A DNA stretch of 55,330 nt from a virus. Position numbers and translations under genes: made by a program. Below, piece after piece: positions 2,123 to 42,911 of the stretch. The notes beneath the pieces were generated by a model. It did not search any database and was not told the origin of the DNA. It saw only the letters and a program-made list of their open reading frames with translations. Position 1 is the stretch's first letter, and every line of letters begins with the position of its first letter. The stretch is taken from IMG/VR virus record IMGVR_UViG_3300023179_001998, positions 1 to 55,330 of that record. One strand, given 5' to 3'.

Positions 2123-3040
2123 TTATCTTGTGGGGATAGGAATATTGAAGCGTTTTAGTGTCTGTTGGCGGGATGCCGTTGGTCCTCCCGCATCCTTCTC
2201 TTCCTCGTCATCCAAGAAGTCATCTATGGCTGATTTTGAGGGAGCATTCTGGTAGACCCAATTCAGAATTTTTTTGTTGACCTTATCATTATCGTCCAAA
2301 GCCTGCCCTGCTTCTTTAACTTTTATGTACTTGAAGTCCTTGACTACCATGTTCGGAACTCTCGTAGCAGACTGCTTAGATGGCTCAAACATTACTGTAT
2401 TTGATGGACCACCCAAGATGACAAAGGCATCTCCGTTTATGTACTGATATGGGTAGTTCTTGGTCAACATATCCTGCATGTTTTTTGCCGCGCCCGCGTG
2501 AGTTTGAATGAGGATGTTTACGGGAACGGTTCTGCGGCGTTCGAAGTTCTGTTGTACTGCCACACGGAAGTCTGTCAGTACCCAAATCAAATGCATGTTC
2601 TCTTTGCGATATCCTGCTTCCAAAAGCATCGGAACCAACTTAGCAAAGTCGCTATTGTCTTTTAGTGTTCGGTCAAAGATGATGTTTGGAAGAATGTCTT
2701 TTGCTCTTGCGATAGAGAGAAAGGTGTTTATCTTCTTGTCTTCTGAACCCTTGCTCTTTACCCATTGGTGCAAGAAAGAAACATCGTTTGGATTACGAAG
2801 ATCTCTGCCTTTGAGTTCAGGATACTTGTTGTGAATATCATTCCACTTCAAGTATGACATCTTCATCTCATCGGGATCAAAGACCTTGAATTGCGAGGAC
2901 TGAATGAAGTTTGAGATAGCGAATCCCTTACCTGAACCTGCACCACCTGCCAAGAAAATAACTTGACCGTAGGGCTTTCCCTTACCGACTATAACTAATT
3001 TCTCTTCAAGATATTGGACTAGTTCAGATAGAGTTTTCAT
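2123..3040 (-). CDS. P-loop kinase / zeta-toxin-like ATPase
   Basis: A 305-residue protein has a Walker A motif in FLAGGAGSGKGFAISNF at about residues 25-41, followed by FDPDEMK, a layout typical of zeta-toxin and polynucleotide-kinase-like phosphotransferases. A second conserved strand, NIIFDRTLKD (about residues 137-146), is the likely Walker-B-like Asp. It then has HLIWVLTDFRVAVQQN and an Arg-rich lid (FERRRTVPV). It probably phosphorylates a small molecule or nucleic acid; the substrate is unknown. The ATG at 3038-3040 was chosen. An in-frame TTG at 3052 is only 1 nt from the AAAGAGG sequence, too close to be used. A GC-rich HAGAA segment (near 2487-2500) lies in the middle. Confidence 0.7.
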   Translation of the reverse strand: MKTLSELVQYLEEKLVIVGKGKPYGQVIFLAGGAGSGKGFAISNFIQSSQFKVFDPDEMKMSYLKWNDIHNKYPELKGRDLRNPNDVSFLHQWVKSKGSEDKKINTFLSIARAKDILPNIIFDRTLKDNSDFAKLVPMLLEAGYRKENMHLIWVLTDFRVAVQQNFERRRTVPVNILIQTHAGAAKNMQDMLTKNYPYQYINGDAFVILGGPSNTVMFEPSKQSATRVPNMVVKDFKYIKVKEAGQALDDNDKVNKKILNWVYQNAPSKSAIDDFLDDEEEKDAGGPTASRQQTLKRFNIPIPTR

Positions 3041-3058
3041 GGTGCTTATCAAGCCTCT

Positions 3059-24450: not shown

Positions 24451-27400
24451 TTAGACCGCCAAATCTTGATTGAAATACGCCTTGCTGTTTTCAGTAACAG
24501 AGGTATAGTTGCCCGTGTTACCTGCGTATGACCCTGAGGAGGAATTTGTATAGACTATACCGCCAAGACGGTTTACCATGATGTTATACAGAGAGTCTTT
24601 GGCGGCAAATATCACGGACTGCGGATTTGTTTGCCCCCCTTGGGTTAAACCATAGCCATCCATAATAGAATAGTATTGACCTGTTGTTGATGGGAGGATA
24701 CTCACAACGGAATTGTTTGATGCTATTAGACCTTGCTGCCCACTAGCGGAAAGTAATCGGAAATTAGAATCTGAAACCTCAAGATTTGCTCCGTTTACAA
24801 TCATTCCTGTTCTGTTGTTTACTATTGTGTTGTGGTTATAGGTTATACCAGCAGGAACTATTTGAATTGTGCTGTTCTTGTTGGCGACAATTCCCGCCGT
24901 GTTTTGTGATAGAACAGAACCCATCATAACAACAGAAGCGTTCTCTGCGTAAATTCCAACACCATTTCTTGAGCCTATAAATCCATCAATAACAACCCGA
25001 CCACCATTACAATAAACAGCGGATCCGTTGATTGGCGTTTGATATACGCCCATACCCTCTTGGATATTTACTCTACCACCATCGCACACTATTGCTTTAG
25101 AACTATTTTCTGTGGCTGTTGCGGTTGCGGTATCGTACACTATGATAAAAGGATCGCCCCGACCGTCGTTTCTCTTACCAAGAGTCAAGGTCGCGGAAGA
25201 ATCTACTATGAACCCCGTAGTGTTGTTTAGGACAACAGAGGTCTTGTATACATTATAGAATCCTAAGTTTGCATCAGTTATTGTTCCATTGAAAACAGAA
25301 GCCCCCGATGCGCCATTTGCTATTCTTCCAAGAGCAGTAACTTTTCCTAGTTCCGAATCAACTGTTGTAACTTGGTAAATTCCACACAGAGACATGACTC
25401 CACTACTAGTATCTCCTGCTGTTCCCCCCAATAAACCCGAAGATCCCATCAAGAAAGTTTCGGGTGTTAGAGTTAGATAGTCGCCAACGGATATGTTATC
25501 TACAGGAGAAAAAATTTCTACAGTAGATGTTAGTCCACTCACAGATACATTTATCTGTAGTGGATCTATTTGAAGATAAGAATTGTCCGAAGCACAGATA
25601 TGGTAGTTTCCGTTATCGACAAAAATTGGTCTTGATAGTGTATAACTTCCTTGACCCAAAACTATCTCTGATCCCTTTATCTTCTCTATAGATTTTGCCG
25701 CAGCAGCAGAACTCATATAAGATACACTACTATAAGTTCCCTCCGAACAAGTGCTTCCGCATGGACTTTTTAGTGATACATTACTTCCCCAACCATACAA
25801 AAGCCTTGAGAGGTTTATGGGCTGTGTTCTATTGTGTGAAGCGTGTCTAGATGTTCTTGAATCGTTATACCAATAAGTAAAGGAAGATGGTTCTTCCTCT
25901 GTGGAGGAAAGATTCATCGGGAAAACCAAACCCGTTCCAAATGATCCAGAAGGAGAAAGGAATACTGTTTTGTAATCGGCATCTCCCCAAGAATACAAAT
26001 CAGAAACTCCTGTTGCTCCCGTTGCTCCTCTATCTCCTGTTGCTCCACGATCTCCTTGGAGACCCGTATTTCCCGTTATTGATCTTCCGGGTGAACCCAT
26101 ATTTCCTGTAGGAACCCAAACAATATTATAAAGACGAGGAGATGTAAAGGATAAATTGCCGCCAAGATCTACAGTTGCGGGGAATTGAAATACAGAACCA
26201 ACCTTGGTTGATGCTTGAGTTACCCCGAGTATTCTTATTGCGTCTAGTGTTACCGCATCTCTTATGTAAATAGTTCCTCTTACAATAGAAGAACTGTAGC
26301 CCCATGTTCCAAAGAAATTGGAAAGGTTTGTTACTGTTGTTCCGGTTGGTTGAACTTCATTGATATAGAAGGTTCTGCTTATTGTGTCGTACCAGAAATA
26401 ACCTTGAGGTACGGTTGTAGATGTTCCATATCGGTAAGACAGAGTTCCCAAAGAAAATCCGGTAGAACCTGTTGGTCCTGTTCTTCCATCTAGTCCCGTG
26501 ACTCCTGCTGGACCCGGAGTTCCTTGCGGACCAACTTCTACTCCCGGATTTCCTTTATTGGACTTGTATCGTATTAGCCAATTTGTTGACAAATATGGTG
26601 GTAGATTTTGGTGAGCCTGTGAACCGCCAGTCAAATCCGAAACCGCCTTGTTTGCCTGATATTGGTTGGTAATTACGCTATTTACTCCGGAAGCGGTAAC
26701 ACCAGATCCTATGGTTTGTTGTTGAGTTCCCGGTGGTGTATATCCGCCCCCAATACTACTTCTGATTGGTATTTGGTGTCTGTGTGATGGTATTTCGCTT
26801 AGTGATAGGGTGTGAGTTTCTTCTCCACCCATTTCACCCAAAATATGAGTAGACAATCCTCTTCCCCTACCTGAACCCATAACAGTTCTTCCACGAAGAT
26901 CGGGGACAAAGAAATAATCAGATGTGTATCCGGACTCTTCTCCCGTCTTAAGAGATTTTAGTGTGATTTCTGTACCTTCCGCAAGATCATTGAACGATGA
27001 TGCTCCAGATGCCCATCCCGTCATTCCTTTTAGGAATGTAAAGGTAGCATCTGTAGTTGTTCCTGTAGCAGAATAGACTCTCACTACGGCTTCTTTAGAA
27101 CCCCAAACCATTTTATAGGTTTGATTGTTTATTAGAGAGTGATTCTTTGTACTTCCGGGCTTACCCGCAGAAATCAAATGAGAATCGTCTACCGCACCAT
27201 CAAATCTAATGTAACCTGTAGATCCTGTAGTTCCGGATAGTACTAGACCAAATATAGAATACTTTTCTCCTATTGCTGTGTACAGATCGTTATATGTGTC
27301 GGAACTTGTTGTTCCTTTTGGGAAGGAGTCACCAGCACACAACAAATAATTCCCCGGAACTTTATCGGGGGTTCCTGCAAATGGAACTAGTGTTCCTACA

Positions 27401-27897
27401 GGGCTGAATATAGAGACTTGCGTATTCCCCAATAAAACAGACGCAGCAGGCAACCCATTAACAACTATGCCCGAATAAGAATCCGTGGCAATCATCATTG
27501 GTTGAACAACGGTTGAAGTTGAGGGAACTCCTGTTGTCAGACCACCGCTCAATCCAGTTGAGAGATAGTAGGTGTTGCCGGTTACCAAGGGAAACGAGAG
27601 CAGAGAAGATGTTGCCCCCGCAGGGAATTCGATTTCTCCTTGATAGACAACCTCTACTGTCCACATCCCGCTAGCGGTATATCCTCCCTGAACCACACCT
27701 ACGGTTTGTGCATTTTGCCAAACATCGGCCTTGGCTAGGTTTAGACTGCCGTCATCGTCAATGTATACCGCAGCCCCATAGTGTAGGGTTCCGCTAGGAA
27801 ATGCTTGTGGTGCAAGATTAGTATACTTCTTTAACAGCGTCGTTTGAGGAGGCTGTTGTAGAATATGAAAGCCGCCACGGGAAGTTGAAAAAGCCAT
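24451..27897 (-). CDS. Tail fibre with tail-collar domain, collagen-like repeats and beta-helix
   Basis: A 1148-residue adhesin. The N-terminal 150 residues are beta-rich. A phage tail-collar domain follows (about 165-380), starting VGTLVPFAGTPDKVPGNYLL and including a gp12-type His motif in LSEIPSHRHQIPIR. Two collagen-like Gly-X-Y blocks come next: about residues 450-485 (GPQGTPGPAGVTGLDGRTG) and about 600-630 (GLQGDRGATGDRGATGATG). The C-terminal 450 residues have repeated short V/I-rich strands with Asn/Gly turns (NGGRVVIDGFIGSRNGVGIY), typical of a parallel beta-helix receptor-binding or glycan-cleaving domain. It probably trimerises through the collagen segments. A late motif precedes the start. 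Confidence 0.85.
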   Translation of the reverse strand: MAFSTSRGGFHILQQPPQTTLLKKYTNLAPQAFPSGTLHYGAAVYIDDDGSLNLAKADVWQNAQTVGVVQGGYTASGMWTVEVVYQGEIEFPAGATSSLLSFPLVTGNTYYLSTGLSGGLTTGVPSTSTVVQPMMIATDSYSGIVVNGLPAASVLLGNTQVSIFSPVGTLVPFAGTPDKVPGNYLLCAGDSFPKGTTSSDTYNDLYTAIGEKYSIFGLVLSGTTGSTGYIRFDGAVDDSHLISAGKPGSTKNHSLINNQTYKMVWGSKEAVVRVYSATGTTTDATFTFLKGMTGWASGASSFNDLAEGTEITLKSLKTGEESGYTSDYFFVPDLRGRTVMGSGRGRGLSTHILGEMGGEETHTLSLSEIPSHRHQIPIRSSIGGGYTPPGTQQQTIGSGVTASGVNSVITNQYQANKAVSDLTGGSQAHQNLPPYLSTNWLIRYKSNKGNPGVEVGPQGTPGPAGVTGLDGRTGPTGSTGFSLGTLSYRYGTSTTVPQGYFWYDTISRTFYINEVQPTGTTVTNLSNFFGTWGYSSSIVRGTIYIRDAVTLDAIRILGVTQASTKVGSVFQFPATVDLGGNLSFTSPRLYNIVWVPTGNMGSPGRSITGNTGLQGDRGATGDRGATGATGVSDLYSWGDADYKTVFLSPSGSFGTGLVFPMNLSSTEEEPSSFTYWYNDSRTSRHASHNRTQPINLSRLLYGWGSNVSLKSPCGSTCSEGTYSSVSYMSSAAAAKSIEKIKGSEIVLGQGSYTLSRPIFVDNGNYHICASDNSYLQIDPLQINVSVSGLTSTVEIFSPVDNISVGDYLTLTPETFLMGSSGLLGGTAGDTSSGVMSLCGIYQVTTVDSELGKVTALGRIANGASGASVFNGTITDANLGFYNVYKTSVVLNNTTGFIVDSSATLTLGKRNDGRGDPFIIVYDTATATATENSSKAIVCDGGRVNIQEGMGVYQTPINGSAVYCNGGRVVIDGFIGSRNGVGIYAENASVVMMGSVLSQNTAGIVANKNSTIQIVPAGITYNHNTIVNNRTGMIVNGANLEVSDSNFRLLSASGQQGLIASNNSVVSILPSTTGQYYSIMDGYGLTQGGQTNPQSVIFAAKDSLYNIMVNRLGGIVYTNSSSGSYAGNTGNYTSVTENSKAYFNQDLAV

Positions 27898-40548: not shown

Positions 40549-41139
40549 TTAGAGGGAAGCCGCCCATTTCCAAACTTCCTCGCGTGAGGCTTTCTGAAAT
40601 CTATCTAGGGGCAAAAACGGAACGATCTTCCAATCGTATGGTGCTACTTGAACTACCCCCGACAAGAAATGCCCGTATCGGTAACTCTTGATACACGCCT
40701 TAAGAAATTTACGCATACTTGGGCTTTTCTTGAGAAGGTAGTACTCCAATAGCATGGATGCCTTGGGGTCTTCAAACCAATCCACGGCATCCGCAAAGTC
40801 AATCAGGTAGTTCAGGAACACCGCACGGTTATGGAACCGCAGGTAGTGTAGATTTAGTCCTAAGAAGCCGTTCTTTTCGTAGTTCAATACCACAACAAGC
40901 GGGAACTGATCGTAAAAGGGCATCTCGTATTTTCCTTTGGGGTCATAGGAGAAGAAATACATCTTTCCGGGCTTGACTGAGTTTGGGGATTGAACCCCTG
41001 AACGCAGAATGGCTCCCTGACTCATTGGTTTTATTCGGGATAGATTATCCTTTAGCCAATAAGTAGCCTTCTTTGAGGTCATTTCCATGTCCTCAAATCG
41101 GAACTGACGGACTACCTTTAGTACATCCTTCTTACTCAT
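40549..41139 (-). CDS. Putative DNA end protector gp2-like protein
   Basis: A 196-residue protein directly downstream of gp4, with an ATGA overlap. The block KPGKMYFFSYDPKGKYEMPF then YDQFPLVVVLNYEKNGFLGL and NLHYLRFHNRAVFLNYLIDF is conserved in T4-like and jumbo phages under the label DNA end protector (gp2), which blocks RecBCD on injected DNA ends. The 2-4 gene pairing also occurs in T4. The T4 protein is longer (274) and I cannot show similarity beyond this block, so the name is tentative. Confidence 0.55.
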   Translation of the reverse strand: MSKKDVLKVVRQFRFEDMEMTSKKATYWLKDNLSRIKPMSQGAILRSGVQSPNSVKPGKMYFFSYDPKGKYEMPFYDQFPLVVVLNYEKNGFLGLNLHYLRFHNRAVFLNYLIDFADAVDWFEDPKASMLLEYYLLKKSPSMRKFLKACIKSYRYGHFLSGVVQVAPYDWKIVPFLPLDRFQKASREEVWKWAASL

Positions 41140-41597
41140 GCCTTAGCCTTACCGAATATCTCTTCTTCCGTTAGGATTTTGAACTTCCATCCCCTGTCAG
41201 CACAGAATGCTCTAGCGGCTTCCCATTTACTGCTGTTGACCATCCAATCCCTGATCTCGTTCAGTTTGTTTCGGGTCATCTTCTTACCCTCTGTGATTGG
41301 CTGAACAGTCATTTTCTTTGGCTTGATCTCTATGAGCATAGACTCCTCTATACCTTGGGAGTTCTTGGCTTTGATCCAAAAGTCAACGAAGTATCTGTGT
41401 ACCTTCCCGTCCACGGGCGAGCGGTATGGGACGATGATTTCTTCCGAAGACCACTTTAGGATTGATTCGGTTAGGTCACAGTATTGCATAAAGCGGCGTT
41501 CCCACAACGAACGATACACACATTTGGTGGGATCGCCTTTATACTTTTGGGGGTTCTGTGGGCGGTAGAACCCTTTATATGTTTTGAAGGTTCCGAT
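41136..41597 (-). CDS. 4: Head completion protein gp4, probable non-canonical AUC start
   Basis: A head completion protein/nuclease-fold protein of 153 residues if started at ATC 41595-41597 (T4 gp4: 150). Diagnostic blocks: YRSLWERRFMQYCDLTESIL, WSSEEIIVPYRSPVDGKVHR and YFVDFWIKAKNSQGIEESML. A GTG at 41519 would drop the conserved N-terminal GTFKTYKGFYRPQNPQKYKG, which matches the usual start of this family. The open frame reaches back to a TAG at 41616-41618 without any ATG, GTG or TTG before that block. AGGAG (41606-41610) lies 8 nt before the ATC, and a consensus late promoter TATAAATA lies just upstream. Either AUC is used or a base is wrong in the sequence. Confidence 0.85.
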   Translation of the reverse strand: MGTFKTYKGFYRPQNPQKYKGDPTKCVYRSLWERRFMQYCDLTESILKWSSEEIIVPYRSPVDGKVHRYFVDFWIKAKNSQGIEESMLIEIKPKKMTVQPITEGKKMTRNKLNEIRDWMVNSSKWEAARAFCADRGWKFKILTEEEIFGKAKA

Positions 41598-41605
41598 GAC
41601 CGTAT

Positions 41606-41610
41606 CTCCT
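41606..41610 (-). promoter_or_regulatory. Ribosome binding site deciding the gp4 start
   Basis: AGGAG on the minus strand, 8 nt before ATC 41597 and 5 nt before GTC 41600; no standard start codon lies within range. Confidence 0.6.
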
Positions 41611-41616
41611 ATCTTC

Positions 41617-41624
41617 TATTTATA
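41617..41624 (-). promoter_or_regulatory. Late promoter TATAAATA (consensus) before gp4, divergent pair
   Basis: Exact late octamer on the minus strand. T4 spacing puts +1 near 41611, immediately before the AGGAG at 41606-41610. It is paired with a plus-strand CTAAATA at 41634-41640, as at 3.6 kb. Confidence 0.75.
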
Positions 41625-41633
41625 AAACATCTA

Positions 41634-41640
41634 CTAAATA
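41634..41640 (+). promoter_or_regulatory. Late promoter motif CTAAATA before gp48, divergent pair
   Basis: Plus-strand CTAAATA, 17 nt before the GTG start of gp48, followed by AAGGAG. It is the only clear promoter of the 13.6-kb baseplate operon. Confidence 0.65.
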
Positions 41641-41657
41641 GCAGTAAGGAGAACAAA

Positions 41658-42911
41658 GTGCCAAATAACGAAACCAGAATTCCAAGTTCGGGTCAACAAC
41701 CTGTCACATCATTACAACCAAGAAATGTTAGAGAGTCTTTTGTAGGGAACACCCTTTACACATATCCACTAACTCTTGGATCAGTTCCCGAGTATCAAAA
41801 TTTCATGACATTTGAGATATTTGAAACAGGAGGTCAAGGGTTAAATTCACAGAAAGATTCCTATAGTGATAATCCTTTTTCGGGAACAAGTGTTCAATTC
41901 CCCGTTTCGGTAGCAGGAGGCGTTTTAGCAGAAAGAGGAATTAGTAGTCTGGGTAAATTAGGAGAAGGTGTTATTAGCCAAGGATTAGGAAGTTCTGTTT
42001 TGGGTAAAATTGGCGGGGCGTATGGCGGGTTTGCAATTCTATCTGTCATAACTAGTGGTGTTGGTGCAGATGTCTTCAATCAAGTAAAAGATGGGTTTGG
42101 TTATAACAAAGGTATGGGAACAGGGGAGTTTGGGTTTACTCAAGAGGTAACTAAATTCAACACAGCAAACAGAAGAGTAGACAAAACAATCTGCCTGTAT
42201 CTTCCGGCAAACATCAAAACTTCGTATGGAGTAGAGTATACTGAAGAAGATATGGCTTCTACAGCACTTGCAGCAGACACACTAAAAATAACGGCGCAAT
42301 CGCTGAAAAATTTAATCTCGGGCGGCGATGTTGGAGGCATGAAAGATAGTCTAAAGGCCGCTTTGGATAAGGGAACCGGTAACCTTTTGGGAAGACAGTC
42401 TCTAAAGGTCGCTTCCGAATCGTTATCAATTTTGGCAAAACCAATATTCGGTGATGATGTAAAGTTGGACAAGTTGTATGAAGGAATGACAAGACAAGTT
42501 GCTAATCCTATGGTTGTGAATATGTTTAAGAGTGTAAAGAGAAGGTCTTTTACTTTCTCTTTTGTATTTGTCCCAACATCAAGGGAAGAATTGAGAAACA
42601 TCTACAACATCATCACTTTATTCAAGAAGTATTCTATGCCAAAGAGAGCGGACGATTCTTCTGGTGGACGCTTACTAGAATACCCGGCAGAATGGAGAAT
42701 TCGCTTTTGGAACCATCAGAATGAGAATCTTTATCTTCCAAGAATAGCAAGATGCTGCTTGAAAGACATAAACCTTACATATGGTGATACACCATTTACA
42801 ACATTCGCTCCAGAAGAAGGATTAGGTGCAGCCCCAACAAAGTATGAAATGGAATTAACCTTTGAAGAACTAGAAATCTTGGTACAACAGAGAATAGACG
42901 AGGGGTACTAA
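41658..42911 (+). CDS. 48: Baseplate tail tube cap gp48
   Basis: A 417-residue protein starts at GTG 41658, fixed by AAGGAG about 6 nt upstream; the open frame further upstream overlaps gp4 and is not used. The N-terminal YTYPLTLGSVPEYQNFMTFE, then NTANRRVDKTICLYLPANIK (typical of gp48-like proteins) and the C-terminal FVPTSREELRNIYNIITLFK...WRIRFWNHQNENLYLPRIAR match the T4-like gp48, which caps the baseplate under gp54. It is longer than T4 (364) owing to an Ala/Gly-rich helix region at about 85-150. It is the first gene of the rightward baseplate operon. Confidence 0.85.
   Translation: MPNNETRIPSSGQQPVTSLQPRNVRESFVGNTLYTYPLTLGSVPEYQNFMTFEIFETGGQGLNSQKDSYSDNPFSGTSVQFPVSVAGGVLAERGISSLGKLGEGVISQGLGSSVLGKIGGAYGGFAILSVITSGVGADVFNQVKDGFGYNKGMGTGEFGFTQEVTKFNTANRRVDKTICLYLPANIKTSYGVEYTEEDMASTALAADTLKITAQSLKNLISGGDVGGMKDSLKAALDKGTGNLLGRQSLKVASESLSILAKPIFGDDVKLDKLYEGMTRQVANPMVVNMFKSVKRRSFTFSFVFVPTSREELRNIYNIITLFKKYSMPKRADDSSGGRLLEYPAEWRIRFWNHQNENLYLPRIARCCLKDINLTYGDTPFTTFAPEEGLGAAPTKYEMELTFEELEILVQQRIDEGY

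Follow-up and report, generated by a model that had tools for sequence, protein, structure and literature searches.

Start region of gene 4

Where does translation of gene 4 begin in the virus of IMG/VR record IMGVR_UViG_3300023179_001998? The window, i.e. the whole stretch of DNA analysed, is 55,330 nt long, and in the frame of the gene 4 product (gp4) on its minus strand none of ATG, GTG and TTG occurs from the TAG at 41618-41616 up to the conserved gp4 N-terminus. The original prediction was that gp4 starts at AUC, and its coordinates for the start region as well as the lack of a canonical start were both borne out by reading of the sequence. The features of the region are the following.

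41136..41597, minus strand: gene 4 (head closure / completion nuclease), ATC start, 153 codons plus stop
41595..41597, minus strand: proposed start codon ATC (AUC), the sole conserved codon upstream of YKG; AUC, AUU or AUA in 61 homologous loci
41606..41610, minus strand: Shine-Dalgarno (SD) sequence AGGAG, 8-nt spacer to ATC, duplex with the 16S tail -7.3 kcal/mol
41616..41618, minus strand: in-frame TAG closing the gene 4 frame upstream, 6 codons between TAG and ATC
41617..41624, minus strand: T4-type late promoter TATAAATA of gene 4, ending 19 nt before ATC
41517..41519, minus strand: GTG, the start of a standard gene caller (127 aa), rejected as main start
40549..41139, minus strand: gene 2, DNA end protector (phrog_429, E 8e-40), its ATG overlapping the gene 4 stop
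41634..41640, plus strand: late promoter CTAAATA of the divergent gene, assigned from the sequence and, in representatives, from a TATTTA element at 24-46 nt from the start
41658..42911, plus strand: divergent gene, GTG start after AAGGAG at 41646-41651, assigned from the sequence and the neighbour annotation in relatives

On the minus strand the order is TATAAATA, GAAGAT, AGGAG, ATACGGTC and then ATC GGA ACC TTC AAA ACA TAT AAA GGG. Read from the stop, the gp4 frame is TAG AAG ATA GGA GAT ACG GTC ATC GGA ACC TTC AAA, and the promoter and the in-frame TAG share two bases. The consensus late promoter first noted ahead of gp4 is present, and the spacer between AGGAG and ATC 41597, when re-read, was 8 nt as first described. 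The T4 late promoter rule gives the position of the mRNA 5' end relative to the promoter, and from it we infer a gene 4 leader of about 14 nt. In the window there is no ATG in any frame from this predicted 5' end to the conserved gp4 codons. The upstream gene (41658..42911), which stands where relatives have the tail tube cap gene, is divergent, and therefore there would be no translational coupling or hand-over of ribosomes into gene 4. Both observations argue against initiation at an ATG elsewhere followed by a frameshift, a ribosome hop or RNA processing, which is extremely improbable.

Identity of the gene 4 protein

The protein matched phrog_218 (head closure) over residues 5-149 (E 3.1e-58) and the TnsA-like endonuclease family PF08722 over residues 44-144 (E 1.5e-22). 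A Foldseek search with its predicted structure gave TnsA (1t0f/1f1z) as the best matches, E 2e-4, and residues D72, E90 and K92 are invariant in the gp4 alignment. The segment YKGxYxPxNPxKYxGDP is conserved in AUH (AUC, AUU or AUA) and ATG phages alike, and is modelled with high confidence. Gene 2 follows directly downstream, as in the T4 gp4 family. From its sequence and predicted structure, gp4 is a TnsA-like PD-(D/E)XK nuclease of the T4 gp4 head completion family. T4 gp4 was assigned to the PD-(D/E)XK nucleases in 2005 (PMC1189080), and its DNase activity is required for packaging according to Benler 2020, as relayed in PMC7824862.

Start codons among relatives

The survey, five scans of viral contigs plus annotated phages, covers 238 distinct gp4 loci. 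The start is ATG in 172 of these, AUH in 61 (30 ATC, 20 ATT and 11 ATA) and ACG in 2, and 3 could not be assigned. A sixth scan brought no further AUH lineage; the loci that it added have ATG, plus two with GTG and one with a likely TTG. All 18 cultured phages examined have ATG. The 80 relatives of the first scan, at 55-98% identity, have ATC, ATA or ATT at the position seen in the window or at most two codons from it, with one group of four (L077-L080) as the exception. L001, from another metagenome, is 98% identical to gp4 of the window over 122 residues, and L020 is 92% identical; both have the identical ATC and AGGAG. A single wrong base in assembly or sequencing would suffice to turn ATG into ATC, a doubt already raised with the original prediction, but this was tested and excluded, since the ATC recurs in these independent contigs from other metagenomes and AUH in 61 distinct loci. 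The probability of such an error is negligible.

In several lineages an in-frame stop stands shortly before the ATH codon (TAG CCC ATT CCT in L016-L018, TAG GAG GGG TTT AGA ATC in L004, TAA GTT GCT ATC in L002), and therefore no canonical codon is available there. Sister phages differ in the start codon itself, ATG AAA AGA TCC AAC GAA in L188 as compared to ATC AAA AGA TCC AAC GAA in L094. Column 1 of the gp4 alignment is almost invariant, and the residues that follow are free to vary. In 273 pairwise comparisons of the AUH codon the first two bases never differ and the third differs in 112; sites upstream of the codon differ in about half of the comparisons. Counted over codon positions 1/2/3 in the largest group, there are 342/407/421 differences upstream, 0/0/106 in the start codon and 527/466/1607 past the anchor, that is, codon-position bias is absent upstream of AUH and present downstream. 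An in-frame ATH at SD spacing was found in 37 of 37 representative AUH loci as compared to an expectation of about 15% per locus after shuffling, a comparison that ignores shared ancestry and uses loci classed by the AUH codon itself. The pairwise invariance of the first two bases is the firmer test.

The AUC start first proposed for gp4 is thus supported by AUH at the homologous codon of relatives, by the upstream stops, by a codon-position bias with its onset at AUH, and by sister phages with ATG at the identical codon. Judging from these comparisons of sequences, it is very likely that translation of gene 4 begins at the AUH codon.

The competing start is an internal canonical codon, with the upstream frame untranslated. 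In the window this is GTG 41519-41517, the first canonical codon downstream of ATC, 26 codons in. It is the choice of ORF callers, and the PF08722 domain would remain intact. However, the first canonical codon shifts among relatives, from codon 6 to codon 31 past the YKG anchor, and GTG 41519 has no strong SD (-3.9). Furthermore, an internal start would delete the YKGxYxPxNPxKYxGDP segment, which is conserved, codon-biased and confidently modelled. Such a start is very improbable, and GTG 41519, which had been named as the other candidate, is unlikely to be the gp4 N-terminus. Gene callers limited to ATG, GTG and TTG truncate gp4, and it is therefore likely that gp4 is misannotated throughout the group. 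For Aeromonas phage avDM5 (L408, OP380602.1) the annotated gp4 of 119 aa begins at an internal ATG; an ATG that gives the full N-terminus lies upstream, and the annotation is plainly wrong.

Another non-canonical codon was observed in L109 (IMG/VR 3300010354_020073) and L122 (IMG/VR 3300032288_006298), which are 94% identical and come from two metagenomes. Both have ACG at the exact place of the ATG of relatives; A-YKG follows directly, a stop lies 6-7 codons before the ACG, and AAAGGAAA is upstream. Over the next 31 codons no canonical codon occurs in either locus. The ACG seems to be a non-canonical start of gene 4 that arose independently.

Ribosome binding sites, promoters and history

The AUH loci have a mean SD duplex energy of -8.7 kcal/mol, and 97% of them are at -6 or better. 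The distance from the late promoter to the AUH codon is mostly 19-21 nt among the AUH representatives (range 14-25), and an opposite late promoter lies further upstream of gp4's own. In Kyanoviridae-like phages with an ATG start the SD is generally absent (mean -0.5), and in the T4-type phages RB3, CBH8, SP18 and Vibrio VS2 gp4 has AUG together with a strong SD. The idea that gp4 never pairs AUG with a strong SD thus holds for most Kyanoviridae-like loci and is false for T4-type phages. An association between AUG and loss of the SD comes from 3-4 independent pairs only (sign test, p 0.25). A hairpin that masks the SD was rejected, the predicted folds being inconsistent across the AUH clade. 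In Kyanoviridae-like loci such as L085 and L089 gp4 has no SD, and its ATG directly adjoins TATTTAG, which is the late promoter motif of the divergent gene.

On a gp4 tree of 107 proteins, built with the first residues omitted and with few columns and many unsure forks, the AUH rows form one clade of 42 rows, 37 of them AUH. At its base is one ATG row on a long branch, and ATG occurs inside the clade in three separate groups, L183/L091, L188 and L077. Third-base parsimony takes 16 steps over all rows, and about 12 changes among C, A and T on the gp4 tree compare with 3 returns to G, counts that alone do not exclude drift. The SD is lost in L183/L091, weak in L188 (-4.0) and kept in L077 (-7.1). 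It appears from the tree that T4-like phages of a large group, as yet uncultured, have kept a weak gp4 start through long evolution.

Why a weak start may be kept

A weak start kept for so long suggests that gp4 is deliberately made in small amounts. Initiation at AUH codons uses fMet and is repressed by IF3. In the explanation that we favour, the SD would guide initiation with fMet-tRNA at AUC 41597 on a very short late mRNA leader, and the strength of the SD would set how far initiation proceeds from the weak codon. Selection would hold the AUH class as a weak start that limits gp4 synthesis. Head completion would take only few copies of this TnsA-like DNase, and an excess may harm. AUU and AUA starts that follow a strong SD in S. 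aureus reach about 10-30% of the AUG output (PMC13009471), and for Streptomyces sigR a non-canonical start has proved essential to the correct dose (PMC5472188). We give the whole reading, a real AUH start whose weak codon limits the dose of gp4, a probability of roughly 0.57. That the purpose of AUH is to limit dose, and not a matter of history or timing, has somewhat better than even odds. Caution about the purpose comes from the T4-type relatives, where gp4 has AUG behind a strong SD, so that throttling of gp4 is not needed everywhere; these phages may have another limit on gp4, or tolerate more of it.

An explanation without selection on dose is that the AUH start is real and a historical accident, which arose once and is compensated by the strong SD to an about normal output. 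The single AUH origin on the gp4 tree and the strong SD in 97% of the AUH loci are consistent with this, and SD compensation for weak starts is known (PMC5622118). But ATG is only one base away, and although the third base has changed many times, 37 of the 42 clade rows are still AUH. Two of the three returns to ATG have an absent or much weaker SD, as if extra output were unwanted. An accident of this kind seems rather unlikely.

The AUH codon could also be a real but IF3-sensitive switch, with gp4 rising late as the IF3/ribosome ratio falls, so that it would control timing and not merely lower the output. AUH and GUC starts of infC and sigR are repressed by IF3 (PMC5472188), the AUA start of ccpN responds to the growth medium (PMC13009471), and gene 4 is a late gene behind the TATAAATA promoter. 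Against a switch, neither the window nor four relatives have an IF3 gene, and AUG has been regained three times in the clade; we would not expect it to be the answer. A broader idea, that AUH in the clade and ACG elsewhere both place the head nuclease under IF3-dependent control of dose or timing by host proofreading, is possible and still doubtful. If the IF3-gated reading were true, the identity of the start codon would be a selected regulatory element in phage morphogenesis.

Comparison with known weak starts

Conserved AUH starts are known in very few bacterial genes. The start of infC is AUU in E. coli, ATC in Streptomyces and AUA in S. aureus (PMC5472188, PMC13009471), that is, an AUH class with a free third base as in the phage gene 4. 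The product of infC is IF3, which autoregulates its own gene, whereas gp4, a phage head nuclease, cannot do so. The original prediction placed the AUC start among rare cases of the infC kind. Its AUH start class stands, but it is not the peculiarity of one phage, since the feature spans a whole clade. Autoregulation as in infC does not apply, as the gene 4 product is a nuclease instead of an initiation factor and a search of the window and four relatives for IF3 was negative; a dose limit is the more probable role.

According to a title cited in PMC13009471, E. coli pcnB has an AUU start, and in S. aureus the weak starts AUU of cvfC1 and AUA of ccpN stand behind strong SDs (PMC13009471). These genes share with gene 4 the weak AUH codon behind a strong SD, and in them expression is limited. 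They are chromosomal, whereas gene 4 is viral and late, has a leader of about 14 nt and has its AUH start fixed across a phage clade. Streptomyces sigR is similar in its conserved non-canonical start, its extended ribosome binding site and its long misannotation (PMC5472188), but its codon is GTC, and repression by IF3 has been shown experimentally for sigR. In T4 and the Kyanoviridae, gene 4, as a rule with gene 2 as its neighbour, encodes the ortholog of this TnsA-like head completion nuclease and starts with ATG in the cultured phages examined, T4-type with a strong SD and Kyanoviridae mostly without. Gene 4 of the window is of the AUH-start kind in having no in-frame canonical start, an AUH at SD spacing, and AUH conserved in orthologues with a strong SD.

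We found no earlier report of an AUH start in a phage morphogenesis gene in the openly licensed literature. If the dose-limit reading is right, the choice of start codon sets the dose of a DNA-cutting assembly protein in phages. The free drift of the third base among C, T and A, the occasional returns to AUG and the separate ACG lineage offer natural replicates with which to study the retention of a weak start.

Gene specificity and host

The other genes examined in the window start with ATG, GTG or TTG, and the window, a 177-kb relative (G001) and a 120-kb relative (G004) yielded no further convincing AUH gene. The AUH candidates in the two relatives are seemingly shadow ORFs or have an alternative SD-led start available, and the strongest-looking of them has no family match. 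The start of gene 2 is canonical in all 57 readable AUH loci. The host would therefore not be generally permissive. A special phage initiator tRNA was rejected, since no tRNA factor is common to the window, G001 and G004; there are no tRNA genes in the window or in G004. The 177-kb relative has ten tRNA genes, including a tRNA-Ile(UAU) at L397:8884-8958.

By capsid protein, the virus is closest to cultured pelagi-, methylophilales- and cyanophages (about 60%). A search for gp4 in bacterial genome contigs gave one distant match, in a Glaciecola MAG, with an ATG start. Elsewhere on the minus strand of the window, 2123-3052 encodes a Zeta-toxin-like kinase domain (PF06414, E 2.8e-9) that may be a polynucleotide kinase, and 24451-27897 encodes a long, 1148-aa tail-fibre-like protein with weak matches to collagen repeats and tail collar.
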